A stretch of DNA of 32,583 nucleotides, from the IMG/VR virus record IMGVR_UViG_3300031801_000658, positions 1-32,583 of that record; one strand, 5' to 3'. The stretch is from a virus. Under the pieces are notes generated by a model, which did no database searches, was not told the DNA's origin, and was given only the letters and a program-made list of their open reading frames with translations. The translations under genes and the position numbers were made by a program. Each line of letters starts with the position of its first letter. Position 1 is the stretch's first letter. Shown here piece by piece: positions 7,403 through 25,046 of this stretch.

Positions 7403-8433
7403 AGCATCGCTTTAATATCAGATTCTAGCAATTTTAACAGACTGGGATTTCCTTGTAGGAACTGGTATAGCTTTTCTTGTCCCTGAAATTTAGTAGTGGG
7501 ATCAAATTCTATGGCCTTGGCTTCTTCTTCGTGGTTCTCCATAAAGTTGCATGTGAACCAAGCTCCAGCTTTAGAGATCAGACCAAAATCTGCTCCTAAA
7601 TTGATCCATTCACAAACACTATCAATACCCTTGCCATATCTAAGATAGCTATCTACTACTGCTCCCGGTGGACCCAAGGCAGAATGTTCTACGGTCCAAG
7701 AAATTATCTGTCCAATTGGGGTATCGGAGTTTCCAACGCTCCATTTCTTAACCCCCTTGGATCTTAGCTTAACATCAGACTGGTATTTTATTTTCTGGCC
7801 ACCGTCTTCAATATAAGCCTTTCCATACCCACTGGTATTGGCGATCAGGTGTTGTATAATGATTATGATAGTCTTTTGTATGGGGACTACTGTGCCCATT
7901 TGTTTGCAAAAAGAGGATAGTAGCTTTGGGGTTCCCGCTCTAACCTGACCGTTGATCTCGTTGAGCATCTCTTTTTCTGGAGACAACGCAGAAGCGGAGT
8001 CTATTATCACCACGCAGCCGGGGTGATCTTTTATGATGTTGGTTGCGATGGTCAAAAAATCTTCTGCTGTTAAGATATTGCCTTGAGTGGATTGTATCAA
8101 TTTTAACTTGTCGGGATCTAGCCCCTCTACGCCACTTAGGTTCATTTTCTTGAACCTGCCCTCGGCGTTGAGGTAGTATACCATCCTGCCGCCGTATTCT
8201 TCTTTTTGACAGTTGGCGGCTATTTGTAGAGCGGTGGTGGTTTTTCCACATTTAGGGGCGCCAGATAAAATAACCCAACTGCCTTCTGGAATTCCACCAT
8301 TTAGACCAATGTCTATAGAGGGGCTGACGGAAACCGTTAATATATCTTCTTCCATTACGAGATTAGAATCAATCATAATCTCGCCATACTTCTTAATGAT
8401 ATCTTTTTCTACTTTTTCGTAGTATTCATTCAT
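7399..8433 (-). CDS. uvsX: RecA/UvsX-type recombinase
   Basis: 344 aa. RecA-fold ATPase: Walker A GAPKCGKTT at residues 58-66 following IDIGLNGGIPEG, the catalytic-glutamate strand YYLNAEGRF (E91), Walker B CVVIIDSASAL, and an L2-like region around QHLIANTSGYGKAYIEDGG. Forms filaments on ssDNA and drives strand exchange for recombination-dependent replication and repair. Length and layout are closer to UvsX-like phage proteins than to bacterial RecA. The start overlaps the previous gene's stop in ATGAATGA. Downstream neighbours are a nuclease and a UvsY-like candidate. Confidence 0.88.
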   Translation of the reverse strand: MNEYYEKVEKDIIKKYGEIMIDSNLVMEEDILTVSVSPSIDIGLNGGIPEGSWVILSGAPKCGKTTTALQIAANCQKEEYGGRMVYYLNAEGRFKKMNLSGVEGLDPDKLKLIQSTQGNILTAEDFLTIATNIIKDHPGCVVIIDSASALSPEKEMLNEINGQVRAGTPKLLSSFCKQMGTVVPIQKTIIIIIQHLIANTSGYGKAYIEDGGQKIKYQSDVKLRSKGVKKWSVGNSDTPIGQIISWTVEHSALGPPGAVVDSYLRYGKGIDSVCEWINLGADFGLISKAGAWFTCNFMENHEEEAKAIEFDPTTKFQGQEKLYQFLQGNPSLLKLLESDIKAML

Positions 8434-8866
8434 TGTCCAGATCTCTCAGTTTGGAAATAGTGCTCTTATTCCCGAAGGGTTTTCTTGGCTTCCTATCTGT
8501 TTCTATATCTTCTACGCTAATAGAGTCTTGTGCATCTGATCGTTGTAGAATTTGTTCTTCTTTTGTGATCAGATCTTCTAAGCCGGGAAATCTTAGAGAA
8601 TAGATAGACTTCCCTCTGCTGCTATTCAGAGCCTTGATTATTGCTCTCTCGTCATGCTTGTTGACGAGGCGGTTGGCTAAAATTATTTGGTGGGTATAAG
8701 ACTTCTTCCACTTTTCTGTGTTCCAAAATTTGTACGCGGGGGTTCCAATATTGTCCTTCTCTGCCTGTCTTTGACAAACTGTTTCAGCTATATACTGGGC
8801 TGCTGTGCAATATTCTCCAGTGGAGGGGGATTTGTACCTGCTTTTATCACTTCTTTTTCTCGTCAC
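8426..8866 (-). CDS. Unknown phage protein upstream of uvsX
   Basis: 146 aa, starting with GTG at 8866 (AGGGTG about 9 bases upstream). N-terminal part is basic with a TGEYCTAAQYIAETVCQRQA segment, the middle has WKKSYTHQIILANRLVNKHDERAIIKAL, which looks like a compact helical domain, and the tail is charged and probably flexible. No function recognised. It overlaps uvsX by 8 bases, so expression should be coupled to the recombinase; similar small genes sit beside recombination genes in other phages. Confidence 0.7.
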   Translation of the reverse strand: MTRKRSDKSRYKSPSTGEYCTAAQYIAETVCQRQAEKDNIGTPAYKFWNTEKWKKSYTHQIILANRLVNKHDERAIIKALNSSRGKSIYSLRFPGLEDLITKEEQILQRSDAQDSISVEDIETDRKPRKPFGNKSTISKLRDLDNE

Positions 8867-9305
8867 TTAGTACACCCTGTCTGGTTATCAAGCAAATTGT
8901 GTTTTCGTCTGGGTCTCTAGTCTCTGTGAATTGCGTTGTTAATTCTGGAACATTGTAGGCGGTAATAAGTAAAATATCTTTTTCCAAAACTCCACAAATG
9001 TATGAATGATGAGTTAATCCTCCTCCATATAAGAAGCCTCCAGCCCCTTTGCAAAAATAATATCCATCGTAATCCTTGCCAATCTCTACTTTGTTTGTCC
9101 CATTCTGGATATACATATCCACAATATGAACACCGGTTTCTTTACAGTGAATACTCAAGCGCTCCCAAGCGCTTTCTGGGTATACGCCTTCTCTTTCGTC
9201 ATCTTGGTATACAACTGAGCCCTCCGACAGAGTGGCAACCCAAACACTGCCTTTCTCAAATAAGCTAGCTGTGTACAGATCTGGTTCTGTGCATATAAAG
9301 ACCAT
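8847..9305 (-). CDS. Unknown protein
   Basis: 152 aa from the ATG at 9305, whose A is shared with the upstream stop (TGATG); a TTG at 9308 is less likely. Predicted mostly beta (MVFICTEPDLYTASLFEKGSV, then VHIVDMYIQNG, DGYYFCKGAGGFLYGGGLTHHSYICGV). The Gly/Tyr-rich GAGGFLYGGGLTHH segment is distinctive. No family recognised. Ends in a basic DEKKK tail overlapping the next gene by 20 bases. Confidence 0.65.
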   Translation of the reverse strand: MVFICTEPDLYTASLFEKGSVWVATLSEGSVVYQDDEREGVYPESAWERLSIHCKETGVHIVDMYIQNGTNKVEIGKDYDGYYFCKGAGGFLYGGGLTHHSYICGVLEKDILLITAYNVPELTTQFTETRDPDENTICLITRQGVLSDEKKK

Positions 9306-9631
9306 CAATCGTCCTTTATTTTATGCATCACGTCTGGATTAAACTTGTTCTTTTGTTGAGCCGGTGTCTCCCCAGCCATGGAGGCTTCTTGTGTCATAAC
9401 AGACACTCCGTATTTCTCATTTTTAATCATCATATCTCCAGCGCTTGGAGCATCAGATTTAGATTTTGCAATATGCTCAGTGTCGTCAGAACTTAGTGTG
9501 TCAAGATATTTCTGAACGGTTTTTTCTGTTCTCGATAGATCTGTAGCTAGTTCTTTAACTGGTTGATTCTGATTGTTATCGATATAGAACTTTTCTACTT
9601 TAGTAAGCGGTCCTTTATTTTTGGTTGCCAT
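9305..9631 (-). CDS. Small protein with predicted helix-turn-helix
   Basis: 108 aa. Residues about 25-45 (VKELATDLSRTEKTVQKYLDT) fit a helix-turn-helix of the kind found in sigma-region-4 or DNA-binding phage regulators: 'ELAxDLxRTEKTVxKYL'. The rest is flexible, with Lys, Asp and Ser, and a Met-rich GVSVMTQEASMAGE segment. It may be a transcription or DNA-packaging regulator; function unproven. It overlaps the upstream gene by 17 bases and the downstream gene by one base. Confidence 0.65.
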   Translation of the reverse strand: MATKNKGPLTKVEKFYIDNNQNQPVKELATDLSRTEKTVQKYLDTLSSDDTEHIAKSKSDAPSAGDMMIKNEKYGVSVMTQEASMAGETPAQQKNKFNPDVMHKIKDD

Positions 9632-9983
9632 CTATTACCATCCTTTCTGCTTGAGTTAAATGTCTTGTGGATCTTGTTTTTAGATATTTGCAGTACTGTT
9701 CAAACACTACAGAGCTAACCTTTCTCCAGTCCCAATCCCCGGTTCTTGTTCTATCAGCGTAAGTCCCCCACGGATCAAATATTCTTCCGCGTCCAAATTT
9801 AACGTAGTACGTAACCGATTTGGTATTATCTTCTGTGCCTACGTTGGTTTTATTTACTAGCTTAGCGTAACTTTTAGTGCTGTCTTTTTTTACAGAATTT
9901 CCACCTTCTGTAAAATATGTAACCTCGGTGACAACTGGATTTGGGGCTTGGAAATCCAACTCTTCATTTTCATGTCTAGACAT
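9615..9983 (-). CDS. Unknown protein, possibly virion- or DNA-associated
   Basis: 122 aa from the ATG at 9983, which overlaps the upstream stop in ATGTCTAG; a longer form would start inside the upstream gene. Contains a repeated Thr/Ser/Tyr beta-rich part and a conserved-looking RIFDPWGTYADRTRTGDWDW block followed by a helical VFEQYCKYLKTRSTRHLTQAER end. Not recognised. Co-transcribed with the zinc-ribbon genes upstream. Confidence 0.65.
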   Translation of the reverse strand: MSRHENEELDFQAPNPVVTEVTYFTEGGNSVKKDSTKSYAKLVNKTNVGTEDNTKSVTYYVKFGRGRIFDPWGTYADRTRTGDWDWRKVSSVVFEQYCKYLKTRSTRHLTQAERMVIDGNQK

Positions 9984-10278
9984 TTGGCAGTTCTTTCGTT
10001 GTTTTGATAACGAAGCTATTGTTATCGCCCATGATTGGCGCTTCTTCAAGCTTAACCCCTTCGGAGGGAACCATATAGAATGCGCCAGATACCTCTTTAA
10101 GAAAACTGCTGTCTCCGCAAAAACAACAGTTGGCTTTTATCTTAACGGAGGTTGGGGCATCCTTAACGAGCATCACTTTAGCCAAGTGTTTGCCACAATT
10201 AGAACAATCTAGCTGAATGGATGTTACATCCACTGGCGGTTTAGCCTCTTCAGGCTCTTTTTGAAAAAAATCTACCAT
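9976..10278 (-). CDS. Small zinc-ribbon protein
   Basis: 100 aa from the ATG at 10278, two bases after the preceding stop. Two CxxC knuckles (LDCSNCG and CCFCGD) about 30 residues apart make a zinc ribbon; an acidic N-terminus (FFQKEPEEAKPP) and a beta-rich C-terminus follow. The start at 10332 would extend 50 bases into the upstream gene and is unlikely. Could be a nucleic-acid-binding or transcription-modifying phage protein; no family recognised. Confidence 0.7.
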   Translation of the reverse strand: MVDFFQKEPEEAKPPVDVTSIQLDCSNCGKHLAKVMLVKDAPTSVKIKANCCFCGDSSFLKEVSGAFYMVPSEGVKLEEAPIMGDNNSFVIKTTKELPNV

Positions 10279-10280
10279 GG

Positions 10281-10502
10281 TTATTGTCCGTCGTGGAATT
10301 CTTTGATTTTGTTGATTAAATTTTTTATGCACTCGTATTTGTTGGAACCCTTAACAACTACGGGAACTTTTTCAGATTTAATTCCATATCTACTCATCTC
10401 TGCCAAAGACATTTTGCCTCCAGAACATTCTCCCGTTTTAAGAACTTCGTGAATAGCTATGTCCATTGTTACAATAGCCTTATATGGCGCATCTACAGAC
10501 AT
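10281..10502 (-). CDS. Small unknown protein
   Basis: 73 aa from the ATG at 10502 sharing its A with the upstream TAA (TAATG). The long open frame beginning at 10679 is an out-of-frame extension into the FmdB-like gene and is not used. Sequence MSVDAPYKAIVTMDIAIHEVLKTGE ... GSNKYECIKNLINKIKEFHDGQ suggests an alpha/beta fold. Function unknown. Confidence 0.65.
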   Translation of the reverse strand: MSVDAPYKAIVTMDIAIHEVLKTGECSGGKMSLAEMSRYGIKSEKVPVVVKGSNKYECIKNLINKIKEFHDGQ

Positions 10503-10849
10503 TATTTGGTTCCTTTTTTTATGTATCTCTTTTTTTGCTCGGGAGTCATTTTTCTTATTTCTTTTTTGGTGGCCCTCTTCGACGTGTCTCCAGAGGCCTT
10601 CTTCTTGGCCTCTTCCTGCTCCCCTCTCTTGTCCCCCAGTTCGTATCTCCCCATCTGCTTTGTATTTCTTTCTGCCCAATGTTCGATTGTTTGAGGCTCT
10701 CCTTTCATAAAAATAAATGGAGTCCCAAAGACACGCTCTAGTTTGTTTTTCTCACACTCAGGACATTTTCTTTTTACCTTGTCTTTCATGGATTGGACAA
10801 TTTCAAAACCATGTCCACAAGCAGAACATCGATATTCATATGTTGGCAT
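10502..10849 (-). CDS. FmdB-family zinc-ribbon protein
   Basis: 115 aa. Begins with the family hallmark MPTYEYRCSACGHGFEIVQS, with a second CPEC knuckle (C29 and C32 region) closing an N-terminal zinc ribbon. FmdB was first seen as a putative regulator of formamidase; phage members are of unknown function. The C-terminal half is highly charged (EEAKKKASGDTSKRATKKE, then KKRYIKKGTK) and probably disordered or DNA-binding. TAATG junctions on both sides show tight translational coupling. Confidence 0.82.
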   Translation of the reverse strand: MPTYEYRCSACGHGFEIVQSMKDKVKRKCPECEKNKLERVFGTPFIFMKGEPQTIEHWAERNTKQMGRYELGDKRGEQEEAKKKASGDTSKRATKKEIRKMTPEQKKRYIKKGTK

Positions 10850-11148
10850 TAGACAATTTTTTCCAAATCTTTGATTATAGACCTGACTGCACTAGCATTG
10901 TTCTTCTTTTGTGAATCTACTAGTTGCAAAGATAAAAGCCTTATATTTATTAATTGCTCACACAGATGCTGTACAATATTTCCGGTTATCATGGGAGCCT
11001 TTTGAGACACATCAATAATTTGATAACATTGTTCTTGTTTCATTAGCCGAAATGGTTTACCATCTTCAGTCGTTAAACTGTACTCTCTTTTTAAAGACGG
11101 AAATATTTTTTCGGATAAAGATCCTAGTTCGAAGCCGAATAACTTCAT
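10849..11148 (-). CDS. Small unknown helical protein
   Basis: 99 aa from the ATG at 11148, which overlaps the upstream stop as ATGA; the longer frame from 11214 would read through the upstream membrane gene. Mixed alpha-beta N-terminus (MKLFGFELGSLSEKIFPSLK) and a long C-terminal helix with GNIVQHLCEQLINIRLLSLQ and DLEKIV, possibly coiled-coil. No family recognised. Confidence 0.7.
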   Translation of the reverse strand: MKLFGFELGSLSEKIFPSLKREYSLTTEDGKPFRLMKQEQCYQIIDVSQKAPMITGNIVQHLCEQLINIRLLSLQLVDSQKKNNASAVRSIIKDLEKIV

Positions 11149-11480
11149 CGTTGTAGGCTCCACAAAACAAATAATTGCATCAACGAAACAAAAACGATGG
11201 ACATCCAAGCCCAAGACTTTTTATGTAAATACAACCACACAAGAATTCCTAGAGCCAGTGTTGTTCCAGCGGTTTTTACCCCCATAAATAAAGCTATATC
11301 TCCACCGTCCTGTTGTATTAGCCACCTGCCCACTGGATTAAGTTCAAGATCTATCAAATATTCTTGAGTTTTTATAGACGTATATATGTCAACGGCAGAG
11401 GCAAACCCTATAAAAAGCCACAGTTGGGCGTATGTTGCCGCGTAGGCATATTTGTTAAACAGCCTCGTGAAAGTTTTCAT
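11145..11480 (-). CDS. Multi-pass membrane protein (DUF5658-like pattern)
   Basis: 111 aa with three likely membrane helices: about residues 18-33 (YAQLWLFIGFASAVDIYT), 62-82 (ALFMGVKTAGTTLALGILVW) and 90-108 (AWMSIVFVSLMQLFVLW). The DIYTSIKTQEYLIDLELNPVGRWL loop between helices one and two resembles small integral membrane families with a conserved D...E.NP motif. Role unknown; inner-membrane protein of the phage programme. Confidence 0.65.
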   Translation of the reverse strand: MKTFTRLFNKYAYAATYAQLWLFIGFASAVDIYTSIKTQEYLIDLELNPVGRWLIQQDGGDIALFMGVKTAGTTLALGILVWLYLHKKSWAWMSIVFVSLMQLFVLWSLQR

Positions 11481-11482
11481 GA

Positions 11483-11887
11483 TTATGTTGGATTGCCATA
11501 CCTGTCTTTGCCTTCTAGATTAGATACTTCCTCCCAAACATCTGACCAGCCAGACTCATCATCTCCGCGAACTCTAGCCGCTTTGTCATCTATATAGATT
11601 ACGCCAGCGGGCTTTCCCATATAAGCATGATGATATTTAACACCGCGTGCTTCTAGCCAGTCTGTCCATTCCTTATATCCACGCTCATATTGGCGATGGA
11701 TATTACCCTTCTCTCTGTCTCCATATCTAGCAGTGTATAGAGTTATAGTATATCCCATGTCATAAAGTTTATTAACTTGGTCTATGCCGTGTTGTAGTGG
11801 TCCAGCCTGACTGTAGTCACCGCCATGGTTCTTATCTGCTATAACGCCATCGCAGTCTACTATTAATGTTTTACCTGAATCAGTCAT
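11483..11887 (-). CDS. Small HAD-superfamily phosphatase
   Basis: 134 aa. HAD motif I at D11-x-D13 (IVDCDGVIAD), motif II T52 (LYTARYGD), motif III K92 and motif IV D100/D101 (IYIDDKA). The cap is minimal, as in the C-terminal phosphatase domain of T4 polynucleotide kinase and in small sugar- or nucleotide-phosphatases. Substrate unknown; nucleic-acid end repair and nucleotide-sugar metabolism are both possible, given the neighbouring tRNA and dUTPase/RNR. Start ATG 11887 has a strong AGGAGGAG site at 11891-11898, ahead of the tRNA. Confidence 0.8.
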   Translation of the reverse strand: MTDSGKTLIVDCDGVIADKNHGGDYSQAGPLQHGIDQVNKLYDMGYTITLYTARYGDREKGNIHRQYERGYKEWTDWLEARGVKYHHAYMGKPAGVIYIDDKAARVRGDDESGWSDVWEEVSNLEGKDRYGNPT

Positions 11888-11890
11888 GGT

Positions 11891-11898
11891 CTCCTCCT
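11891..11898 (-). promoter_or_regulatory. Strong Shine-Dalgarno site of the HAD gene
   Basis: AGGAGGAG ends 3 bases before the ATG at 11887. It is within a longer TAGGAGGAGAC string that is repeated ahead of the dUTPase gene. Confidence 0.8.
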
Positions 11899-11902
11899 AT
11901 AT

Positions 11903-11908
11903 ATTATA
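11903..11908 (-). promoter_or_regulatory. -10-like TATAAT between tRNA and HAD gene
   Basis: The minus strand reads CGGTATAATATATAGGAGG here. No -35 matching the host consensus is found 16-18 bases upstream, so this may be a phage-specific promoter, an RNA-processing junction or just AT-rich spacer. Confidence 0.25.
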
Positions 11909-11932
11909 CCGTCCAGATGACGTGGATGCACG

Positions 11933-12006
11933 CACCCTCGACAGGACTCGAACCTGTAACCTACGGTTTAGAAGACCGTTGCTCTATCCTGTTGAGCTAC
12001 GAAGGC
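11933..12006 (-). tRNA. tRNA-Arg, anticodon UCU
   Basis: 74 bases fold as a full cloverleaf: acceptor GCCTTCG with CGAGGGT (two G-U pairs), D stem GCTC/GAGC, anticodon stem ACGGT/ACCGT around loop CTTCTAA, T arm ACAGG-TTCGAGT-CCTGT. The anticodon TCT reads AGA (and AGG) codons, which are common in these AT-leaning genes. CCA is not encoded. It starts at the base right after the PhoH stop codon, so tRNA maturation must cut directly at the mRNA end of phoH. In phages tRNA genes usually top up the host's rare isoacceptors. Confidence 0.93.
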
Positions 12007-12648
12007 TTAAAGTTTGGCTAATATTGCGGATATAATCCTATTTCTAACTATATCATCGTCTGTCAATTCTACTATGCCTACCAAGTTGGTGTCTTCTAGC
12101 TTGTCAAGACAGTTCTCTAAGGCTCCTCTTGCCGAAAGTGGAAGATCACTCTGTTCTGGATCTCCATTAACCACAGCCTTGGATTTTCGCCCAATACGAG
12201 TTATGAACATCTTGATTTGTTCATGCGTTGTGTTTTGGGCTTCATCTAATATCATAAAGGAATTGTGAAAGTTTCTGCCTCTCATATATTCTAGAGGAAC
12301 AACTTCTATCGTTCCATCGGACATATATTTTTTAACAAGTGTAGTCGTTAAGAATAATTTCATTTCTTCTAATACGGGTATGAGATATGGGTGAATTTTC
12401 TCTTGAAAACTACCCGGCAAAAATCCCAACCCCGTTCTCCCAGACTCAACAACCGGTCTGGTTATTATTATCTTTTGGACTTTTCCCTCTTTTAGATATT
12501 CGCAAGCCAATCCTACCGCAATGCTAGTTTTTCCCGTTCCCGCCGGTCCTGCACAAAAAGTTACATCATTTTCTGCTATGGTTCTAATGTACTCAGCCTG
12601 ATTTGGGGTTTTAGGCTTGAGTTGCTTCTTACGTGGGCCTCTTTTCAT
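12007..12648 (-). CDS. phoH: PhoH-like ATPase
   Basis: 213 aa. Walker A GPAGTGKTS at about 34-42, the PhoH block ITRPVVESGRTGLGFLPG, Walker B SFMILDEAQN and motif NGDPEQSDLP. PhoH is an RNA-helicase-related ATPase common in marine phage; its role is not settled (RNA metabolism or phosphate-stress response). The N-terminal KRGPRKKQLKPKTPNQ is basic. The gene stops one base before the tRNA begins. Confidence 0.92.
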   Translation of the reverse strand: MKRGPRKKQLKPKTPNQAEYIRTIAENDVTFCAGPAGTGKTSIAVGLACEYLKEGKVQKIIITRPVVESGRTGLGFLPGSFQEKIHPYLIPVLEEMKLFLTTTLVKKYMSDGTIEVVPLEYMRGRNFHNSFMILDEAQNTTHEQIKMFITRIGRKSKAVVNGDPEQSDLPLSARGALENCLDKLEDTNLVGIVELTDDDIVRNRIISAILAKL

Positions 12649-12657
12649 AAATACTTT

Positions 12658-13098
12658 CTATATACCGGAACTGCCAAAACCTTTGCCACCACGCTCGGTT
12701 TCCTCCAATGAGTCCACTTCTCTTAAGAAGAAAGATGGTACTGCTTGTATAATAAGTTGGGCTATCTTATCTCCTTCACTTATAATATAACTTGCTTGAG
12801 AGGCGTTATGTATGCACACTTTAATTTCGCCCCTGTAATCAGAATCTATTACACCACCAAACCTGTGCAAACCTTTTACACCCATGGAAGACCTGTCCCA
12901 GATAAGGCCAGCATATCCCCTTGGGATAGCCATGGCGATTCCAGTTCCAATCAATCTGGTTTCACCAACGGGAATTGAACTATACTTTTCAGCATAAAGA
13001 TCAAATCCGGCATCTGTATCATGGGCCTTAGATGGAAGCTTAGCGTCGGAGTTTACTTTTTTAACTTGTATTGATCCCACTTCCGGATTACCTCCCAT
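12658..13098 (-). CDS. dut: Deoxyuridine triphosphatase (dUTPase), trimeric type
   Basis: 146 aa. The five dUTPase motifs are present: DTDAGFDLYA, DRSSMGVKGLHRF, GGVIDSDYRGEIKV, EGDKIAQLII and RGGKGFGSSG. Hydrolyses dUTP to dUMP, keeping uracil out of DNA and feeding ThyX. I chose the ATG at 13098 because an AGGAGGAG site lies just upstream; a start at 13131 would overlap the RNR gene. Cytosolic homotrimer expected. Confidence 0.95.
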   Translation of the reverse strand: MGGNPEVGSIQVKKVNSDAKLPSKAHDTDAGFDLYAEKYSSIPVGETRLIGTGIAMAIPRGYAGLIWDRSSMGVKGLHRFGGVIDSDYRGEIKVCIHNASQASYIISEGDKIAQLIIQAVPSFFLREVDSLEETERGGKGFGSSGI

Positions 13099-16424: not shown

Positions 16425-16796
16425 TTAAAATGCTCTTAAAGAGTATGTAGCTCTAATGTCCTTTACTAAATTGGCATGTCCTTGTTGTCTGATCACACAT
16501 AGATCAAACTCTTCGCCTAATATCCTGCCTACATTGTCTGGTTTACACACTTTGTATTCTCCTCGAAATCCTAGTATCTTTGCGGCAATCGACAATGTGT
16601 TGACATCGTTTTTATTGATCTCTAGGATCTGTTTGATACCATTAAAACCAAAACAGCCATATTTACTATCAAGTTTCTTGAAAAGGGCGATATCGCACAG
16701 CAACGCCTTTTTCTTACCGTTCTTGAAGCCAAAATGGTTTATTATTTTGGTTACTGGTTTATACCAGCTACCTAGCTCTTCCTCTATAATGAGCAT
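16425..16796 (-). CDS. Unknown protein
   Basis: 123 aa; ATG 16796 has a good GGGAGGAT site, lying inside the end of the upstream gene (29 bases overlap). Alpha/beta with LLCDIALFKKLDSKYG, GIKQILEINKNDVNTLSIAAKILGFRGEYKV. No recognised motif. The VNTLSIAAKILGF helix and following KPDNVGRIL suggests a small folded domain. Function unknown. Confidence 0.65.
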   Translation of the reverse strand: MLIIEEELGSWYKPVTKIINHFGFKNGKKKALLCDIALFKKLDSKYGCFGFNGIKQILEINKNDVNTLSIAAKILGFRGEYKVCKPDNVGRILGEEFDLCVIRQQGHANLVKDIRATYSLRAF

Positions 16797-17250
16797 CTAT
16801 CCTCCCGAGACCGGCAGCGTAATTAGGAATTACAGAATTAGATTCGACGCTTTTCGCTTTTCTGTCATAAATTTTAATAGACCCGTCTTCTAAAATATAG
16901 ATATAATCAGCGTCATGAATATTAATTTGTTTAATGTTCTCTCGCCTTTGTATTAATTGGCGATATCCACTTAGGTGGCCATAAAAATTCAGGTTGTTAC
17001 CATAATAAACTGGTTGGGCTTGAATAGTCCAGCCGCAGGGAGTCCATACCCAGCACATCGATCTTGGCTGAACGAACTGGTTGATATATAAATGAGAAGA
17101 TAAGTTAAGGTTGTTTGTTTCTATTGTCTGTTCTATATTCCTTACAAAGATTTGTACATCGGCGGCTTGAATCTCGTCGGTTGAAATAAAAGGAACAAGC
17201 GCCATAGTGGCAATGACGACTTTAAGAAAATCTCTTCTATACATGATCAT
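16768..17250 (-). CDS. Exported protein with Tat-like signal, unknown function
   Basis: 160 aa from the ATG at 17250 (ATGA overlap with the propeller gene); ATG 17244 would begin MYRRDFLK. The N-terminus has twin Arg, RRDFLKVVIATMALVPFIST, followed by a small-residue site QAA|D near residue 31, which is the classic Tat (RRxFLK) signal. The mature part has a WVWTPCGWTIQAQPVYYGNN beta segment with two Cys (MCW, PCG) and a loop of RQLIQRRENIKQIN. Folded-state export across the inner membrane is inferred; the function is unknown. Follows a beta-propeller and GDP-fucose gene. Confidence 0.6.
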   Translation of the reverse strand: MIMYRRDFLKVVIATMALVPFISTDEIQAADVQIFVRNIEQTIETNNLNLSSHLYINQFVQPRSMCWVWTPCGWTIQAQPVYYGNNLNFYGHLSGYRQLIQRRENIKQINIHDADYIYILEDGSIKIYDRKAKSVESNSVIPNYAAGLGRIDAHYRGRAR

Positions 17251-18158
17251 ACCTCTAGTATTTCTAAACCGTGAACACAATGTTTAATGTCTTCCTCTAT
17301 TTGCAACTGTTTGACGAACTCCTTCTTATTCATGTCAAACACAAGCAAACGAGCCGGGGAAGAGCCTATTATAGCATAACTTCCGCTTCTAGTCAACCCT
17401 CTATTCCAGTTATTTTCTGCAATCTTATCTACTGAAAATTTAGCAAAGTTAGTGGGTGGAACTGGAAAGAAGTTTGATTGTCCGTCTTTAATAATTCCTA
17501 GGTGTTTTAGACTTGTCATGTTAATCAGGGTGCAGTCATCGTATTCATAAAAGTTGTGCTGAAAACTCTTAACTCCATCTATAGAGGGCATGTATTCTAT
17601 AGCCTCCATGGTTTCAAAATCATACAAGTGTGTTATCAAGGCAGAGAACACCAGTCTGCCAGAAAAGGCAGAAACTGAGTTAATATGATATTTGTCATCT
17701 GACACAGCGCCTTTGGGATCTATTTGTCTTTTGCCTGTGAATATCTTGTGATCTTCTTTGTTCTCTCCTAAAATCTCCCAAAATTCGACCACGTTAAGAT
17801 CTGAGTCCAGTTTAACTATTGCGTCATACCCGGTAGATGTGACCCAAATATGCCCATCGAAGTAACAGATCTCGTGAACGGATTTAAAAAATCCTCTGTC
17901 CTGTTTTTTATTAGTTATTTCGTAGCTGTTTTTATCCAGTTCTAATAAGCCGCTTGAGTCAGCTACAATGATTTTGTCTTCTAAAACGGCTATTCCTCTC
18001 AGCCCTCTTTCGCCACCTCTTGTGTTCTCGTTATCAAACTCTCCCGCATGCGGAATGTATTTAATGATTTCGTCATTGTCGATATCAATAACATAGAGGC
18101 CGCCATGTACAGATCCCTGCTTAGCTGCTCGTATAACTGTTGAGCAAATTACTTTCAT
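17247..18158 (-). CDS. Beta-propeller protein (TIGR03032/DUF4915-like)
   Basis: 303 aa, a chain of four-stranded blade-like repeats (GGLYVIDIDNDE, LRGIAVLEDKIIVADSSG, VHEICYFDGHIWVTSTGYDAIVKLD, HINSVSAFSGRLVFSALI, YAIIGSSPARLLVFDMN). The His-rich VHEI and HINSV turns are typical of propeller families found in glycosylation and sugar-binding clusters. No signal peptide. Overlaps the GDP-fucose gene by 38 bases, so the two are probably made together, and may act on the same glycan; enzymatic activity is not shown. Confidence 0.65.
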   Translation of the reverse strand: MKVICSTVIRAAKQGSVHGGLYVIDIDNDEIIKYIPHAGEFDNENTRGGERGLRGIAVLEDKIIVADSSGLLELDKNSYEITNKKQDRGFFKSVHEICYFDGHIWVTSTGYDAIVKLDSDLNVVEFWEILGENKEDHKIFTGKRQIDPKGAVSDDKYHINSVSAFSGRLVFSALITHLYDFETMEAIEYMPSIDGVKSFQHNFYEYDDCTLINMTSLKHLGIIKDGQSNFFPVPPTNFAKFSVDKIAENNWNRGLTRSGSYAIIGSSPARLLVFDMNKKEFVKQLQIEEDIKHCVHGLEILEV

Positions 18159-19106: not shown

Positions 19107-19280
19107 CTAAGCAGTTCTTAGACTGTCTCCAACGATCCAAGCGCCACCTAGCAAAACGATGTTGCTAACCTGCTCTGGATTAAGATCAAGTCCAAAAATG
19201 TTGGTGGTAGTTACAACAATACCCCCAACGGCTACCCAGAATCGCCGGGACTTGATTAGTAGCTGTAGCTTTTCAGTCAT
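19107..19280 (-). CDS. 57-aa holin-like membrane protein
   Basis: Starts at ATG 19280 with GGAG about 8 bases upstream, ends at 19107. Translation begins MTEKLQLLIKSRRFWVAVGG and continues through a GLDLNPEQV turn to IVLLGGAWIVGDSLRTA. Two hydrophobic segments (about 14-29 and 39-52) around a short LDLNPEQ turn: a pattern I associate with small phage membrane proteins often labelled holin or lysis proteins. Lies among envelope genes. Function inferred only from size, topology and context. Confidence 0.65.
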   Translation of the reverse strand: MTEKLQLLIKSRRFWVAVGGIVVTTTNIFGLDLNPEQVSNIVLLGGAWIVGDSLRTA

Positions 19281-19318
19281 CGTCTCTTCTCCATAAAAAA
19301 AGTAATACGAAATCCATT

Positions 19319-19663
19319 TCAGAGGGGTCCATCCTTAGTGATTCTATATCCCGTATTAGCTCTATTATCGCAACTGGGACACATAGGGGTCTTCTGACTA
19401 TGCATACCGAGTTGATGTTGAGTCTTTAGAAGCTGTTGCAATAGCACCGTATCTCTCATAACAGCTTGTTTGTTCATGTTTTGCAGACCCGCCGCAAGGG
19501 CGGCTGCGTCTTGGCTAGTTATGGCCACGTTCTGAACTTCAGGGGTAGGCTCGGTTTTTTTAGGAGCCATATAGTAGTTAATGATAGCGATATCCAGAGC
19601 AACGAGTACGACTGCCGCGCACGTTACTTTAAGTACGAGGAGCGTTGATGGTTTTAGAGTCAT
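19319..19663 (-). CDS. Single-pass membrane protein, unknown (spanin-like topology)
   Basis: 114 aa. One N-terminal membrane helix (about 9-31, VLKVTCAAVVLVALDIAIINYY), then a periplasmic-facing helical Ala/Gln region (AALAAGLQNMNKQAVMRDTVLLQQLLKTQHQ) and a CPSC metal/disulfide motif near the C-terminus. Size and topology would fit an i-spanin but there is no partner lipoprotein gene inside it. Overlaps the upstream protease gene by 35 bases. Function unknown. Confidence 0.65.
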   Translation of the reverse strand: MTLKPSTLLVLKVTCAAVVLVALDIAIINYYMAPKKTEPTPEVQNVAITSQDAAALAAGLQNMNKQAVMRDTVLLQQLLKTQHQLGMHSQKTPMCPSCDNRANTGYRITKDGPL

Positions 19664-20588
19664 TGTCTTCTCTAATTAGGGGAAGCACTGGGAATTTTAC
19701 AGTGTCTATGGTGGCCTTAGTTCCTCTGGTTGGAGAGCTTTCAGTTCCTTCTGTGGACATATATGTCATTTCTTGTAGAGAAGGAACCTTAACGTCTGTG
19801 TCAATAGCCCATAGAACGTTTTCTTTCTTGGCGTAGGCTCTCATTCTCCTTACGGGAACGACCAGATTGAAAGTTTCTCCCGCGCCACGAACAAGCATCC
19901 CCATGTACTGTCCAGCATTATCACCAGACCTCTCGCTTAAGAATACTCCACCACCACTGGACCCCGGAAAAGCCGTCACTGTGGTTTGATCGAAGACTAC
20001 ACCGCTTCCGTTGCCCAAGTCAAGAACTCTTCCAACTTGAGAACAAATTCCTCTCGTCATAGAATTCGAGCCAGTTTGGCCTAATAATGAGCCGACATGG
20101 TAAAGTTCTGTGCCAATGGCTACTGGCTTACCTGCGGCCTTATAGAAGGTGGCTGACTTGTCAACAAAACCCTTCTTTCTGACCATTAGAAGAGCCAAGT
20201 CTTCGCCGTTCTCAGAATCACTGTACTTAATGACCTTAGCTTCCATTTTAATTTCGCCAACCCGGCGGCCATTCTCAACTAGCTCCTGAACAATTTGAGC
20301 GTCCTTGAACTCAACAACTGTTTGGGGCTTGCCATCTTTGATGACAATTCTAACCGATCTAAGACCGTCTACAACGTGTGCCGCAGTCCAAACAAAATTA
20401 ACCTTCTGCTTGACGTTTGGGGAAGTTTCGATCTCCCGCGTTACAATAACGCCGGAGCCTTCTCCCCCTGCCGCCTTCACGGTGACGGAAACGTCTTGCA
20501 GATGTTGATAAAGTTGATTGTCCTGAGCGTTTGCCGCCATATTAAATACAGCGATAACGAGTGTAGCGATACACATAGCCTTCTTCAT
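19629..20588 (-). CDS. Secreted trypsin-like serine protease
   Basis: 319 aa. N-terminal Sec signal peptide (MKKAMCIATLVIAVFNMAANA, cleavage near 21). Chymotrypsin-fold triad: H71 (WTAAHVV), D130 (NGEDLALL), S211 in FPGSSGGGVF. Two Cys are scarce, so it is not disulfide-rich. The C-terminal 60 residues are Thr/Ser/Pro-rich and disordered. Expected to cut proteins in the host periplasm or outer envelope. Follows an unknown 263-aa gene and a larger protease; the ribosome site AAGGAAGGAC lies just upstream in a short gap. Confidence 0.85.
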   Translation of the reverse strand: MKKAMCIATLVIAVFNMAANAQDNQLYQHLQDVSVTVKAAGGEGSGVIVTREIETSPNVKQKVNFVWTAAHVVDGLRSVRIVIKDGKPQTVVEFKDAQIVQELVENGRRVGEIKMEAKVIKYSDSENGEDLALLMVRKKGFVDKSATFYKAAGKPVAIGTELYHVGSLLGQTGSNSMTRGICSQVGRVLDLGNGSGVVFDQTTVTAFPGSSGGGVFLSERSGDNAGQYMGMLVRGAGETFNLVVPVRRMRAYAKKENVLWAIDTDVKVPSLQEMTYMSTEGTESSPTRGTKATIDTVKFPVLPLIREDNDSKTINAPRT

Positions 20589-20623
20589 CGGAGTCCTTCC
20601 TTAAGTCTTAGTATATATAGCGG

Positions 20624-21415
20624 TTAGTTAACTACTTCACCACCACCCTGCATACGCCGCTCGATTTCTCTCTGCGGAGTATTGCCGTCGTTTTCCGCAA
20701 CTCCGGGAGCGACAGGAACATTAACAGTGGAAATAGATCTGAGTTCATCTTCTGTAAACTCACTACCAAGAGCAGGATGCTTGATCCATTCGATAGTGGG
20801 AATATGTGATACATCATAGCCACCGAAGTGTTCTGATGTCAAGAAGAACGGAGCCGTGTTATCAAAAACGAGTTCCGCTTCGGCATAAGGAACCCTGAAG
20901 AGTTCTACGCACATCAGACGATATGCTTCACGGAACAGCTTTTTGATTTCGATGGCCGTAGACTCACTCCAGTCGTTTGACCAAGTGTTCTCACTAAGCT
21001 GAACAATATTGCTCATGCCCTGTAAGCAAAGCTCGATCCATCGACGGCAGTAGTCATTCTTTACATCAAAATATCTAATGGGATAGACCTTGAATGCTCT
21101 ACGCTCATGCGTAATGTGATGAGCTTCAAGACGTTCCACATTATCTCTCTTGGTGTTCACATCAATAAGATCGTTCAGGCGAACGAACATGTTATGATGA
21201 TGCTTTACCGCACCAAGCGTCGGGGGGCCGGGAACGAAACAGTCGGTACGAACCGAAAATGCCTGTAGGTGTTCGCCAACCTTGTCAAACAACCGGCCTA
21301 GGGCTAGGTTATGAGTCTCTTTGTTATCCCCCACATTGGGGATAGCCCACTTCACTCCCTCAAACATATAAGGAATAATTGCGTCGTGGGTAGGGGTTGC
21401 TAAGGTATCAGCCAT
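20624..21415 (-). CDS. Unknown 263-aa protein between the two proteases
   Basis: 263 aa, not recognised. No signal peptide or membrane helix. A long mixed fold with Asn/Asp/Glu and aromatics: EGVKWAIPNVGDNKETHNLA, VKHHHNMFVRLNDLIDVN, RRWIELCLQGMSNIVQLSEN, EIKKLFREAYRLMCVELFRV. The C-terminus is disordered (PGVAENDGNTPQREIERRMQ). Strong AAAGGAGAT site before ATG 21415 and codon choice that looks more GC-ending than the neighbours suggest high expression, as in a virion component. It may be substrate, partner or inhibitor of the adjacent proteases; unproven. Confidence 0.75.
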   Translation of the reverse strand: MADTLATPTHDAIIPYMFEGVKWAIPNVGDNKETHNLALGRLFDKVGEHLQAFSVRTDCFVPGPPTLGAVKHHHNMFVRLNDLIDVNTKRDNVERLEAHHITHERRAFKVYPIRYFDVKNDYCRRWIELCLQGMSNIVQLSENTWSNDWSESTAIEIKKLFREAYRLMCVELFRVPYAEAELVFDNTAPFFLTSEHFGGYDVSHIPTIEWIKHPALGSEFTEDELRSISTVNVPVAPGVAENDGNTPQREIERRMQGGGEVVN

Positions 21416-21427
21416 ATTATATCTCCT

Positions 21428-23401
21428 TTACTCGATATTATATTTTTTCTTAAGTCTTTGACGTAGTAAGGTATCAACTTGAAAAGCGGTCATAGTGTGG
21501 TCGTCTCCGTACTCATTAACCAATTCTCCCAGAGCGGTCATAATTTGCTCTGGGCCAATAGACTTCCGTGAACCAAAGGGCACATGTGGCAATAGTGGTG
21601 CTAATCCGGGTGACGATACTGTGTTGGCCTTAAAACCATAAGGGAGAAAATCATTAGGCATCTCATCAACGCTTCTGCCTCTAGGAAGATCTCTGCGATC
21701 CATTACATATTCCTGCGGGTGGTCTGGCCTTGTGTTTGGCAAGCCATGATGCTGGTGTTCATGCATATGCTTTTGTACGCAATCTCCACACCCATCATCT
21801 TGTATTGGGGGCGGAACAGGAGTTTCCCTATCAATATCATACCCATCATCGTCGTTTTCGTCATCCTCTTTTTTCTTTTTTCTTCTCCTTCTTCTGTTAA
21901 GTAAAAATGGAACTCCGTATTTGAGGGCAAGCATGCCTAGACTGGCTCCACCAAGGGTAAAGCTAACGTTTTCAACTGCGTTACCATTACCGCCAGTAGC
22001 CCCATCTAGATAATGAATTCCGTTTTCTGCAAGATCAGAAATTTTGTCGTCTTTATCTTTAACAACGCCTAGTAGCTGATCTATTCTAGATTTAAGAGAG
22101 CCTTTCTGTCCTTCGACAGTTCCTAATAGTTCTTTCAGACCGTTAATTTCATTATTAGAACTTGATAAATTGCCAGAGACTCCTGCAAGCTCAGCTTTTA
22201 GGCTTTCGGAAAGAGCTTCAAGATTGGCTAGCTTTTCTTGAAGTTCTGTGATCTTGTCAAGATATTCTTGGCGTTCTTTTCCAAAGTCAATAGGTGGATC
22301 AACAGGACCACCGGGATCTGGTCTTCCGGGCCAACCATCAAAGCCACCGTCTGGCGGATTTGGGTTAGAGGGAGGTAATACAGGTGGTTGATTGGGCGGG
22401 GGACATCTATCCCAAGGACACCAAGGAAACAGGCCGTTTCCTTCGTATAGCTCGCCAACTCTGATTCCACCATAATATTTTGCCGTATCTGCGATACCAC
22501 CACCGGGGAGCTTCAGTTCGGGGCAAAACATGAACTCTCCCTTGGGGGTTTTCCTAAGACCACCCTTGAGGGGAATAACCACATGGTCTTTAATCTTATG
22601 GCCACAGTGAGGACAGACTTTACTTAATCTTTCTTCTGCGGACTTAGTGTTTATAGCCTCTTCTTTTTCTTCGTACACTAAACTGTAAGAAGTTTCAATA
22701 GGATGTCCCTGACCATTACCCTCAATGATATCGTAAATCTGCTTTAGGGATAGGCCAGCGCCATAGTCATCTGGACCATCATCTGTCCAAGCCCCATCTC
22801 CAACTCTCCAAGCCAGCAAGATACCCAACCTAGTGTGAGTCTCTCCCTTGTCATCTTTGATAAGAATGAGAACTCCGCTACCTGATTGACCACCAATAGG
22901 AGCAGCATTAAAACTAACAACAGCCCCCGCATTTCTCAGGACTCTGCCTTTCCAAGCGCAAACCCATTGTGCGGAAGGACATCCGCCAGCCATCACAAGA
23001 TCGTTAGCTCCTATTTTTGTACCTTTGGGAGCAAGAGGAATGACTCTAGGGGGATATCGACCGAAATATTTCTTTTTTACTGACACTATAGCTAGATCAA
23101 GAGCGGTTCCCTCTTCGTAAGCTACGTATTCAGTTTTAAAAGGAATCATAGCGGACTTGTAGCCATCTTGAAAGAACTCTAGGTGGCCTCTCTTGGCTCT
23201 TCCAATTACATGGCCGTTGGTCAGTACGTAGTAGTTTTCTTCATCTTCTTGAAATACAGTTCCGCTGCCTATGGCTCCGTTGGTATTTACTCTACATACT
23301 GCGTCTAGTGCTTGATCTATGGTGAGTGGTTGAGCGGATGCTGGACTGCTGCTTAGAATTAACGCTAAGAAAAGCGCTATCGCGCATAGAAATTTATTCA
23401 T
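21428..23401 (-). CDS. Membrane-anchored trypsin-like serine protease, multidomain
   Basis: 657 aa. Sec signal peptide (1-23, ASA|Q); protease domain 30-225 with H64 (TNGHVIG), D102 (ALDLAIV), S173 (GGQSGSG); Cys pairs 263/266 (CPHC) and 293 with 328/333, a likely zinc ribbon; Pro-rich linker 334-371 (PPPNQPPVLPPSNPNPPDGG); coiled coil 374-460; one membrane helix 479-501 followed by RRRRRKKKK, a stop-transfer; then an acidic, His/Cys-rich segment (CGDC, HMHEHQHH) and a cytosolic-side helical tail. Protease outside, tail inside is the expected topology. Preceded by GAGG ribosome site. A remarkable architecture for a phage. Confidence 0.82.
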   Translation of the reverse strand: MNKFLCAIALFLALILSSSPASAQPLTIDQALDAVCRVNTNGAIGSGTVFQEDEENYYVLTNGHVIGRAKRGHLEFFQDGYKSAMIPFKTEYVAYEEGTALDLAIVSVKKKYFGRYPPRVIPLAPKGTKIGANDLVMAGGCPSAQWVCAWKGRVLRNAGAVVSFNAAPIGGQSGSGVLILIKDDKGETHTRLGILLAWRVGDGAWTDDGPDDYGAGLSLKQIYDIIEGNGQGHPIETSYSLVYEEKEEAINTKSAEERLSKVCPHCGHKIKDHVVIPLKGGLRKTPKGEFMFCPELKLPGGGIADTAKYYGGIRVGELYEGNGLFPWCPWDRCPPPNQPPVLPPSNPNPPDGGFDGWPGRPDPGGPVDPPIDFGKERQEYLDKITELQEKLANLEALSESLKAELAGVSGNLSSSNNEINGLKELLGTVEGQKGSLKSRIDQLLGVVKDKDDKISDLAENGIHYLDGATGGNGNAVENVSFTLGGASLGMLALKYGVPFLLNRRRRRKKKKEDDENDDDGYDIDRETPVPPPIQDDGCGDCVQKHMHEHQHHGLPNTRPDHPQEYVMDRRDLPRGRSVDEMPNDFLPYGFKANTVSSPGLAPLLPHVPFGSRKSIGPEQIMTALGELVNEYGDDHTMTAFQVDTLLRQRLKKKYNIE

Positions 23402-23411
23402 AGTTGTTTCC

Positions 23412-23495
23412 TCAACGGTTTTTAACCTTCATGAGTATACCTAAAATAAGTAGCACACACGCAAATCCTACTAGAATGATTCCTAAATCCTGCAT
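23412..23495 (-). CDS. 27-aa membrane micropeptide
   Basis: ATG at 23495 shares its A with the stop of the NlpC-like gene (TGATG), with AAAGGA upstream; TGA at 23412-23414. Translation MQDLGIILVGFACVLLILGI then LMKVKNR: a single membrane helix with a positive C-terminal end. The stop is followed closely by the GAGGAAACAACT leader of the protease. Coupling at both ends argues that it is a real, very short gene. Confidence 0.55.
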   Translation of the reverse strand: MQDLGIILVGFACVLLILGILMKVKNR

Positions 23496-24085
23496 CACCA
23501 GTCCTTTTGGATTGTAAACTTATATTCGAAAAGACAAGATCTTGCTAGATCTGCCGGTGTTACCGCAGAGTCAGCGAGGTAAGGCACTGGGTCTAGATGC
23601 GCTTGTCTGTAGGCGTAAACAACCGCCGTGCTACAAACGAACACGTTCGTTGGATCATCATCTTTTATGTTCTGTTCTGCCAGCCTACAAAATGGCAAAT
23701 AGTGTTTTCCGAGCTTCCAGAAATTTTTCCAACCATACGGCAGACCTGTGATCTTTTTCATAACGTCTGTGATATCGTTGGCTATGTCTTTCGTAAGTCT
23801 ATGACCTTTATCATCAAACTCAATATAGTTAGCCGCTCTAAATACGTCGATGTTATCGGGATGGGTTTCAACCTGAGATTTCATAGAAACGGCTCTACCG
23901 CCCTTAAACTCTCTGAATTCTATACATTGCAGATCGTCATCGTCCCAATGTGCTATCGCGGCATGGCTGTGGACTCCACTGCCATACCTTTTAATGAGCC
24001 AAGAAATTAGTCCCTCTCCGCGAAACAGTAAAACGTCTGCCTCTTGAATTTGGGACATCGCTTCGCGATAGGGAACCAATAGCAT
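23495..24085 (-). CDS. Permuted papain-fold hydrolase (YiiX/NlpC-P60-like)
   Basis: 196 aa. EADVLLFRGEGLISWLIKRY and VHSHAAIAHW with H41, then a far-downstream FVCSTAVVYAY with nucleophile C151: the circularly permuted NlpC/P60 (YiiX, DUF830) order, His before Cys. Such enzymes cut peptide or acyl/amide bonds in cell-wall or lipid substrates. No signal peptide, so export, if any, would need a holin or pore. ATG 24085 directly follows the previous stop (TAGATG). Candidate lysis or entry enzyme. Confidence 0.72.
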   Translation of the reverse strand: MLLVPYREAMSQIQEADVLLFRGEGLISWLIKRYGSGVHSHAAIAHWDDDDLQCIEFREFKGGRAVSMKSQVETHPDNIDVFRAANYIEFDDKGHRLTKDIANDITDVMKKITGLPYGWKNFWKLGKHYLPFCRLAEQNIKDDDPTNVFVCSTAVVYAYRQAHLDPVPYLADSAVTPADLARSCLFEYKFTIQKDW

Positions 24086-24406
24086 CTAATTGTTCTCTAG
24101 TTTTTTTTCTATTCTGTCTAATATATCAGCGATCCTTCTCTGATCATTTACGATTTTAATCATTACATTCTGCATGTCTTTTTGGATTTCTGCCCAGCTT
24201 CTGGGCACGTATACCAAGGGTGTTCCATCGGTATCACATTTGGACATGATTTCATTAGAGTTTTTTAACCAGTCTCTTTCGTCATCCATCAAAACTGACT
24301 TTGAAGGAACTGCTTTTAGGATAAGAACCTCAATCACCTTCCCTAAAATCAAAACAATTGCCACTACTGCGGCCAGCATAGGAACTGAAAAGATTTCTGA
24401 ATCCAT
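24086..24406 (-). CDS. Membrane-anchored coiled-coil protein (holin/spanin-like candidate)
   Basis: 106 aa from ATG 24406, with a GGAG site 7-11 bases upstream. One membrane helix (about 10-28, MLAAVVAIVLILGKVIEVLI) and a C-terminal half of helices with WAEIQKDMQNVMIKIVNDQR then ILDRIEKKLE, coiled-coil. Topology resembles phage lysis-type proteins but no family is recognised. Its leader includes the end of the upstream terminator (24421-24457), so it is probably transcribed from a separate start or by read-through. Confidence 0.65.
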   Translation of the reverse strand: MDSEIFSVPMLAAVVAIVLILGKVIEVLILKAVPSKSVLMDDERDWLKNSNEIMSKCDTDGTPLVYVPRSWAEIQKDMQNVMIKIVNDQRRIADILDRIEKKLENN

Positions 24407-24420
24407 GATGACTCCAAGAT

Positions 24421-24457
24421 AAAAAGAGGGGTCGAGAGTGTGAACCAACGACCCCTC
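24421..24457 (-). terminator. Rho-independent terminator
   Basis: On the minus strand: GAGGGGTCG, a 14-base loop, CGACCCCTC (a perfect 9-bp GC-rich stem) followed by TTTTT. Sits 20 bases after the stop of the 189-aa gene, ending that gene's own transcript. It is the only clear intrinsic terminator I found in the window. Confidence 0.88.
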
Positions 24458-24476
24458 CGTGTTATGAAATTGTCAA

Positions 24477-25046
24477 TTAGCCACCAGTCTTGGCAGGATA
24501 GTCCTTGTTGTTGTTCGTAAACGTAACAAAGTCTTCCAGAATGGTGAATTCGCCGGGTACTGCGCGAGTGGGCGTAGCAGCATGGTCGGCGTTAAACGAA
24601 ACGTTATTGCCAGCGCTGCCACCATCGGTTGCGATACCGGTGCTATAAGCAATGCTAGTAATATCAATTCGCTCAGTTTCAGACAAGTCATGAATAGCAA
24701 CGCGCTCTGGCACTTCGCTTCCGGGGAAGGTCAGTAGGGTTGAAGCAACGTTATTAATCTTCGAGGCATAGCCACGAAGCAAGAACTGAGGATCATTGGC
24801 CTTGGGTTGGTAAGCCAAAGCTCCAGAGCCTTTGGCAGTCTGGACACCGGCCTTCCACTTGGAGCCTGTCAGAGCCACAACCTTGGCCCCATAGCCAACG
24901 TCGGGTGTTTCTGAGATGGCGTTAGCCTTGACTTCAAAAGTTCTTGTGACAGGAGACCCTGCCGTGGTGGTGGTGGCGGCATTGATGCCGAGGACAGTGG
25001 CCCCGTTGTTCTTTTTGCCTGTACCTGATATTGTAGTTGTAGCCAT
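24477..25046 (-). CDS. Thr/Ala/Gly-rich protein, probably abundant virion component
   Basis: 189 aa from ATG 25046 (AAAGGTG about 8 bases upstream; the open frame from 25127 runs back across the leader). Begins MATTTISGTGKKNNGATVLG; beta-rich with few charged residues, no Cys, no signal peptide, one aromatic-rich acidic end (EFTILEDFVTFTNNNKDYPAK). It has its own promoter-like leader and its own terminator, and codons look more optimised than the neighbours. This fits a major structural or decoration protein expressed late; family not recognised. Alternatively a small tail or fibre-tip protein. Confidence 0.72.
   Translation of the reverse strand: MATTTISGTGKKNNGATVLGINAATTTTAGSPVTRTFEVKANAISETPDVGYGAKVVALTGSKWKAGVQTAKGSGALAYQPKANDPQFLLRGYASKINNVASTLLTFPGSEVPERVAIHDLSETERIDITSIAYSTGIATDGGSAGNNVSFNADHAATPTRAVPGEFTILEDFVTFTNNNKDYPAKTGG

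Follow-up and report, generated by a model that had tools for sequence, protein, structure and literature searches.

A conserved cassette of large tailed phages encoding a predicted membrane-anchored protease and a possible role in envelope attack

The window analysed here (the whole stretch of DNA, 32.6 kb) belongs to a large tailed phage and is recorded as a fragment in IMG/VR. Eight minus-strand open reading frames run from position 24406 to 19107 in the order m106, p60, tm28, prot657, g263, prot319, tm114 and hol57, and the eight adjacent genes of an earlier preliminary description are thus all present. The cassette and its boundary comprise the following features:

24421 to 24458, minus strand: intrinsic terminator, a GC-rich hairpin followed by a T run, between s216 and m106
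24086 to 24406, minus strand: m106, a holin-like candidate of 106 aa with one N-terminal transmembrane segment (11-29); its C-terminal half is coiled
23495 to 24085, minus strand: p60, 196 aa, a predicted permuted papain-fold (YaeF/YiiX/BcPPNE-like) enzyme without export signal
23412 to 23498, minus strand: tm28, 28 aa (27 from ATG), a membrane peptide of hydropathy 3.0; optional
21428 to 23401, minus strand: prot657, with a signal peptide and a trypsin-fold protease domain (H64, D102, S173), then a Cys-rich segment, a Pro-rich linker, a coiled coil, a transmembrane segment (~483-501) and a tail
20624 to 21415, minus strand: g263, 263 aa, soluble, of no known family; probable partner of the prot657 tail
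19629 to 20588, minus strand: prot319, with a signal peptide and a trypsin-fold protease domain (H71, D130, S211); mobile gene
19319 to 19663, minus strand: tm114, 114 aa, with an N-terminal transmembrane segment and hydropathy 2.5; optional
19107 to 19280, minus strand: hol57, 57 aa, a holin-like hydrophobic peptide, located elsewhere in several relatives

The four small membrane proteins described earlier can all be recognised (106, 28, 114 and 57 aa), with hol57 being weakly hydrophobic on a simple hydropathy scale. The terminator splits the cassette from the upstream gene s216, and its hairpin was recovered in 23 of 23 folded sequences despite sequence divergence. The gene s216 (24477-25046) is fast-evolving, has no assigned function, is duplicated in several relatives and always stands directly before the slot that the cassette occupies. 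After m106, the gaps between genes are mostly 0-100 bp. Since a hairpin with a T run lies in the longer g263-prot319 gap of at least one relative, m106-p60-prot657-g263 constitutes the better-defined unit. Near the cassette, positions 16768-17280 of the window encode a conserved and likely exported protein of no family with a twin-arginine-like signal (MYRRDFLK).

Searches of the relatives with tblastn recovered the order m106-p60-prot657-g263-prot319 in 26 IMG/VR contigs, a count that takes in some near-copies. Furthermore, exactly two genes matching Trypsin_2 (PF13365) occur in 11 of 12 large contigs, while the twelfth, which starts inside the cassette, has one. Owing to this shared order and the paired protease genes, the five-gene core arrangement is not a product of chance. 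Co-occurrence in relatives therefore holds for the core and does not extend to tm28, tm114 and hol57, which are optional or relocated. The peptide tm28 is found in only part of the relatives, tm114 (37-48% identity) is missing from part of them, and hol57 shows 54-91% identity. The protein m106 (70-92% identity) always lies directly before p60; a 132-aa transmembrane protein at the same place in a distant phage (G013) was considered as its counterpart and set aside, the two being not detectably homologous. The most conserved cassette protein is g263 (87% mean column identity over 25 sequences), comparable to ribonucleotide reductase (RNR; 82-86% identity to the 161-kb relative G001). No relative of g263 was found in species genomes (pattern scan) or in INPHARED, which likewise held none for prot657 and m106 and a single weak match for prot319.

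Several features of G001 are of interest in their own right. Its metabolic genes (L078, L079) include some that are unusual for a phage, namely aldehyde dehydrogenase, class III aminotransferase, 3-hydroxyacyl-CoA dehydrogenase, enoyl-CoA hydratase, IMP dehydrogenase and class I fructose-bisphosphate aldolase, and a DUF1501 protein is also encoded. DNA polymerase III alpha is seemingly split over at least two genes (L076:4468-8858, minus strand; ORFs of 634 and 523 aa with other genes between). A MotA/ExbB-family protein and neighbouring small membrane proteins are encoded close to where the structural block begins (L072, ~8245-12921).

Two Sec-type trypsin-like proteases with full catalytic triads had been reported for this locus, and the present results bear this out. 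Both prot657 and prot319 match PF13365 (44.3 and 36.6 bits against a curated cut-off of 27.6), and no other cassette protein has a Pfam match above cut-off. Behind the hydrophobic signal at each N-terminus stands an AxA-type site. The triads are invariant (H64/D102/S173 of prot657 in 24 aligned sequences; H71/D130/S211 of prot319 in 29), so catalysis by prot657 appears to matter. As judged from its domain plan, prot657 is an exported, membrane-anchored protease, with a basic and His-rich cytoplasmic tail.

The start of g263 follows prot657 by 10-22 bp in every relative. Proteins built like prot657 (signal, protease, Pro-rich linker, coiled coil, transmembrane segment, tail) are also encoded by two distant phages, with 765 aa in G013 (177.8 kb) and 773 aa in G015 (31 kb), and the gene for each is directly followed by one for a protein of 212 or 214 aa. 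Between G013 and G015, identity is 27% for the protease domains, 34% for the tails and 57% for the partners. In the window group, the prot657 tail belongs to a different type and is paired with g263, which has no detectable homology to the 212-aa partner type; the protease of a further phage, G014, has almost no tail and no partner-type neighbour. Because tail type and partner type co-vary, the prot657 tail and g263 are suggested to be a bound pair, i.e., the cytoplasmic tail probably binds g263. The AlphaFold models were too poor for a structure search (pLDDT of 39.5 for g263 and 41.8 for prot657). This pair, the membrane-anchored prot657 with its 263-aa partner, is the key unit of the cassette and had been missed in the preliminary description. 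As separate observations, the G014 gene (L137:7959-9883) encodes a trypsin-fold protease with a C-terminal transmembrane segment inside a head/tail gene block and is followed by a gene for a secreted thioredoxin-like protein, and G013 (L197, L138) has a large tRNA array (11 and 15 genes found in the respective pieces) between its p60 and anchored-protease genes.

The second protease has a separate history. In a sister clade (L007, L012, L013, L016, L021, L034 and L036), prot319 homologues with 70-89% identity to the window copy are located between recA and an endonuclease gene; in the window, recA overlaps the same endonuclease gene. The clades stand apart with full support in the RecA tree and are mixed in the prot319 tree, and a single sister clade for prot319 is rejected by the AU test (p-AU 0.007). 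Given this other location and the tree conflict, prot319 is best described as a single gene that moves independently, not as the fixed member that it was formerly taken to be.

The papain-fold assignment of p60 stands as to its permuted fold. The N-terminal half gives a profile match to PDB 3kw0 (BcPPNE; E 6.5e-5), the residues His41, Glu56 and Cys151 are invariant in this His-to-Cys order (22 sequences), and a homologue is present in G013 (E 1.5e-59). The muralytic NlpC/P60 comparison was rejected, since p60 is of the permuted kind with BcPPNE as its nearest solved relative. Permuted papain-fold members act on lipid or lipoamide substrates and one is a phospholipase (PMC3142127; PMC12994826), and p60 would by family be lipid-directed. 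In profile searches, m106 and hol57 had no family match and no cassette protein matched a holin family; small membrane proteins are present.

In related phages, the slot stands in the order sigma gene, s216, slot, RNR. Three contigs (C13, L225 and L226) have a different, non-homologous gene set after s216 and before RNR, comprising a 194-aa transmembrane protein, an 81-88-aa holin-like protein, a transmembrane protein, a 300-aa protein and a small exported/lipobox-type protein. None of m106, p60, prot657 and g263 was found in this replacement slot, and a further contig (L231) has the first part of the same replacement order. The 300-aa protein carries papain-type motifs (QxxxGxC, H and NSWG) that are invariant in seven sequences; it is papain-like by motif, and profile searches did not confirm this. 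Moreover, the sister lineage G015 encodes an exported matrixin (PF00413, Peptidase_M10; E 9.4e-33; L209, complement ~8132-8743) near its pair of anchored trypsin-fold protease and partner.

Pfam searches found no murein hydrolase in the cassette, PF13539 was not found in 10 relatives, and there is no endolysin among the families listed for G001 (profile searches covering most genes longer than 95 aa). Phages of this family encode sigma factors, which points to a bacterial host. Two phage contigs of this family, C9 and C13 (93.7 and 64 kb, ~158 kb together; L215-L223, G019), with terminase, capsid and RNR 65, 71 and 75% identical, were binned with the SAR202 metagenome-assembled genome OSU_TB57. 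This co-binning, the sole link to SAR202, may reflect a true host relationship or an error of binning. Aldehyde dehydrogenase and tRNA-Arg were considered as host genes and rejected, as both lie on C9 and C13; they belong to the co-binning evidence, which forms one line and not two. Fructose-bisphosphate aldolase was also dropped as a host hint, not being specific. FtsW/RodA is present in 0 of 40 genomes of the order of OSU_TB57, against 10 of 14 controls, and published reports describe SAR202 as lacking peptidoglycan and bearing an S-layer (PMC11994032; PMC10444878). If the co-binning is right, the FtsW/RodA result would indicate a host without peptidoglycan. A SAR202-type member of the Chloroflexota is plausibly the host, and the Gram-negative periplasm to which the proteases had been assigned would be an unlikely destination in such a monoderm.

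The reading put forward here, tentatively and with a likelihood somewhat short of even, is that the locus is, in a family of large, uncultured marine phages, an envelope-attack slot (most likely for lysis) in which proteases replace a murein hydrolase, with an S-layer as a plausible target. The membrane-anchored, exported prot657 would probably hold g263 by its cytoplasmic tail, and prot319, gained as a mobile gene, would add a soluble exported trypsin-fold protease. The lipid-directed p60 and the small membrane proteins would attack or open the membrane, while the exported proteases would act on the protein coat, probably at lysis. Their target would be a protein envelope, the S-layer of a host that lacks peptidoglycan. 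We infer protease activity, target, timing and host; the evidence consists of the core order in 26 contigs together with the invariant catalytic residues, the exchange of the slot content for other genes, among them those of a holin-like and (by motif) a papain-like protein, the matrixin of G015, the lack of an endolysin among the families listed for G001, the SAR202 co-binning and an order without FtsW/RodA. Among the functions suggested earlier, protein-digesting lysis is the best supported, by the replacement set, the matrixin and the failure to find an endolysin, although the papain-fold enzyme is, by its family, directed at lipids and not at murein; no support was found for an anti-defence function. 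A more specific proposal, that a SAR202-type bacterium lacking peptidoglycan and coated by an S-layer is lysed by proteolysis via a dedicated slot with interchangeable proteases (anchored trypsin-fold, soluble trypsin-fold, papain-like and matrixin) and holin-like proteins, is possible but doubtful.

Against envelope attack stand the lack of a holin family match in the cassette, a host link by co-binning that may be an error, an endolysin result obtained with sequence profiles, and a papain reading of the replacement set that profiles did not confirm. In addition, the cassette lies among replication and metabolic genes, outside the late structural block, and the signal peptides would export the proteases once made, without holin timing. 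The last two points would suit surface remodelling or superinfection exclusion, in which exported proteases, available early, strip host receptors or the S-layer or cut the injected tail proteins of competitors, with lysis achieved by something else. The movement of prot319 between phage lineages is likewise accessory-like, and the several glycosyltransferases and sugar enzymes of these phages may alter surfaces. This serious rival is nevertheless rather unlikely, as it leaves the small membrane proteins, the lipid-type enzyme, the slot replacement with a holin-like set and the missing endolysin unexplained. The far higher conservation of g263 than of the protease, mirrored in the partners and protease domains of G013 and G015, raises another prospect, namely a tethering or assembly complex. 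Here, prot657 would mainly be an anchor whose tail docks g263 and its cargo at the membrane, and the protease would sense or trim an envelope partner. The co-variation of tail and partner types and the tail-less G014 protease without a partner fit this scheme, which is quite improbable in view of the invariant prot657 triad, and of a g263 whose binding is predicted and which has no recognisable function.

Packaging of the proteases in particles, or trimming of structural proteins by them, would agree with the position of the related G014 gene among tail-type genes and with s216, which adjoins the cassette and could be structural. The signal peptides and the transmembrane anchor make such a virion-associated or maturation role very improbable, as does the placement of the cassette at a distance from the terminase-portal-capsid block of G001 and on the opposite strand. 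A prohead maturation protease in particular was rejected, since the cassette is outside the head module, where a separate prohead protease/scaffold-like protein lies beside the capsid gene of G001 (by inspection). Nutrient supply, with the exported proteases breaking down envelope or external protein for virus production, would match the many metabolic genes of these phages; as the cassette includes neither a transporter nor a partner peptidase, and the membrane proteins and lipid-type enzyme are left unexplained, this has only the slightest likelihood.

The cassette bears on how viruses leave cells walled by protein instead of murein. Holins and S-layer proteases have been proposed for the egress of archaeal viruses in a review, at which time such viral enzymes were unknown (PMC4456609). 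If true, proteolytic lysis by these phages would be a bacterial-phage case of the S-layer-degrading egress so far hypothesised only for archaeal viruses. The cassette offers named genes and catalytic residues, along with an anchored protease that has an extremely conserved partner, and SAR202, which has been brought into culture, is abundant in the deep ocean (PMC10444878).

Among known systems, the holin-endolysin-spanin cassettes of tailed phages are alike in forming a compact slot with small membrane proteins and a hydrolase, the content of which is exchanged as a unit among relatives. The present locus differs in its enzymes, which are a lipid-type papain fold and proteases that bring their own export signals, and no murein hydrolase or holin family was found in it. 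The archaeal egress proposal shares the combination of membrane disruption with S-layer proteases, whereas the system predicted here belongs to tailed phages with sigma factors and hence bacterial hosts. DegS/HtrA proteases resemble prot657 in the exported trypsin fold and the membrane anchoring; membership in HtrA/DegP was rejected, as Pfam gave no PDZ domain in prot657 or prot319 and both fell far below the cut-off of the NCBIfam HtrA models. In prot657, moreover, the anchor is C-terminal of the protease, the cytoplasmic tail is large and a partner gene follows. Finally, permuted NlpC/P60 proteins (BcPPNE, YiiX and Tox-Act1) share the His-to-Cys order with p60, as reflected in the 3kw0 match, whereas p60 comes from a phage, has no export signal and shares a conserved operon with an anchored protease.
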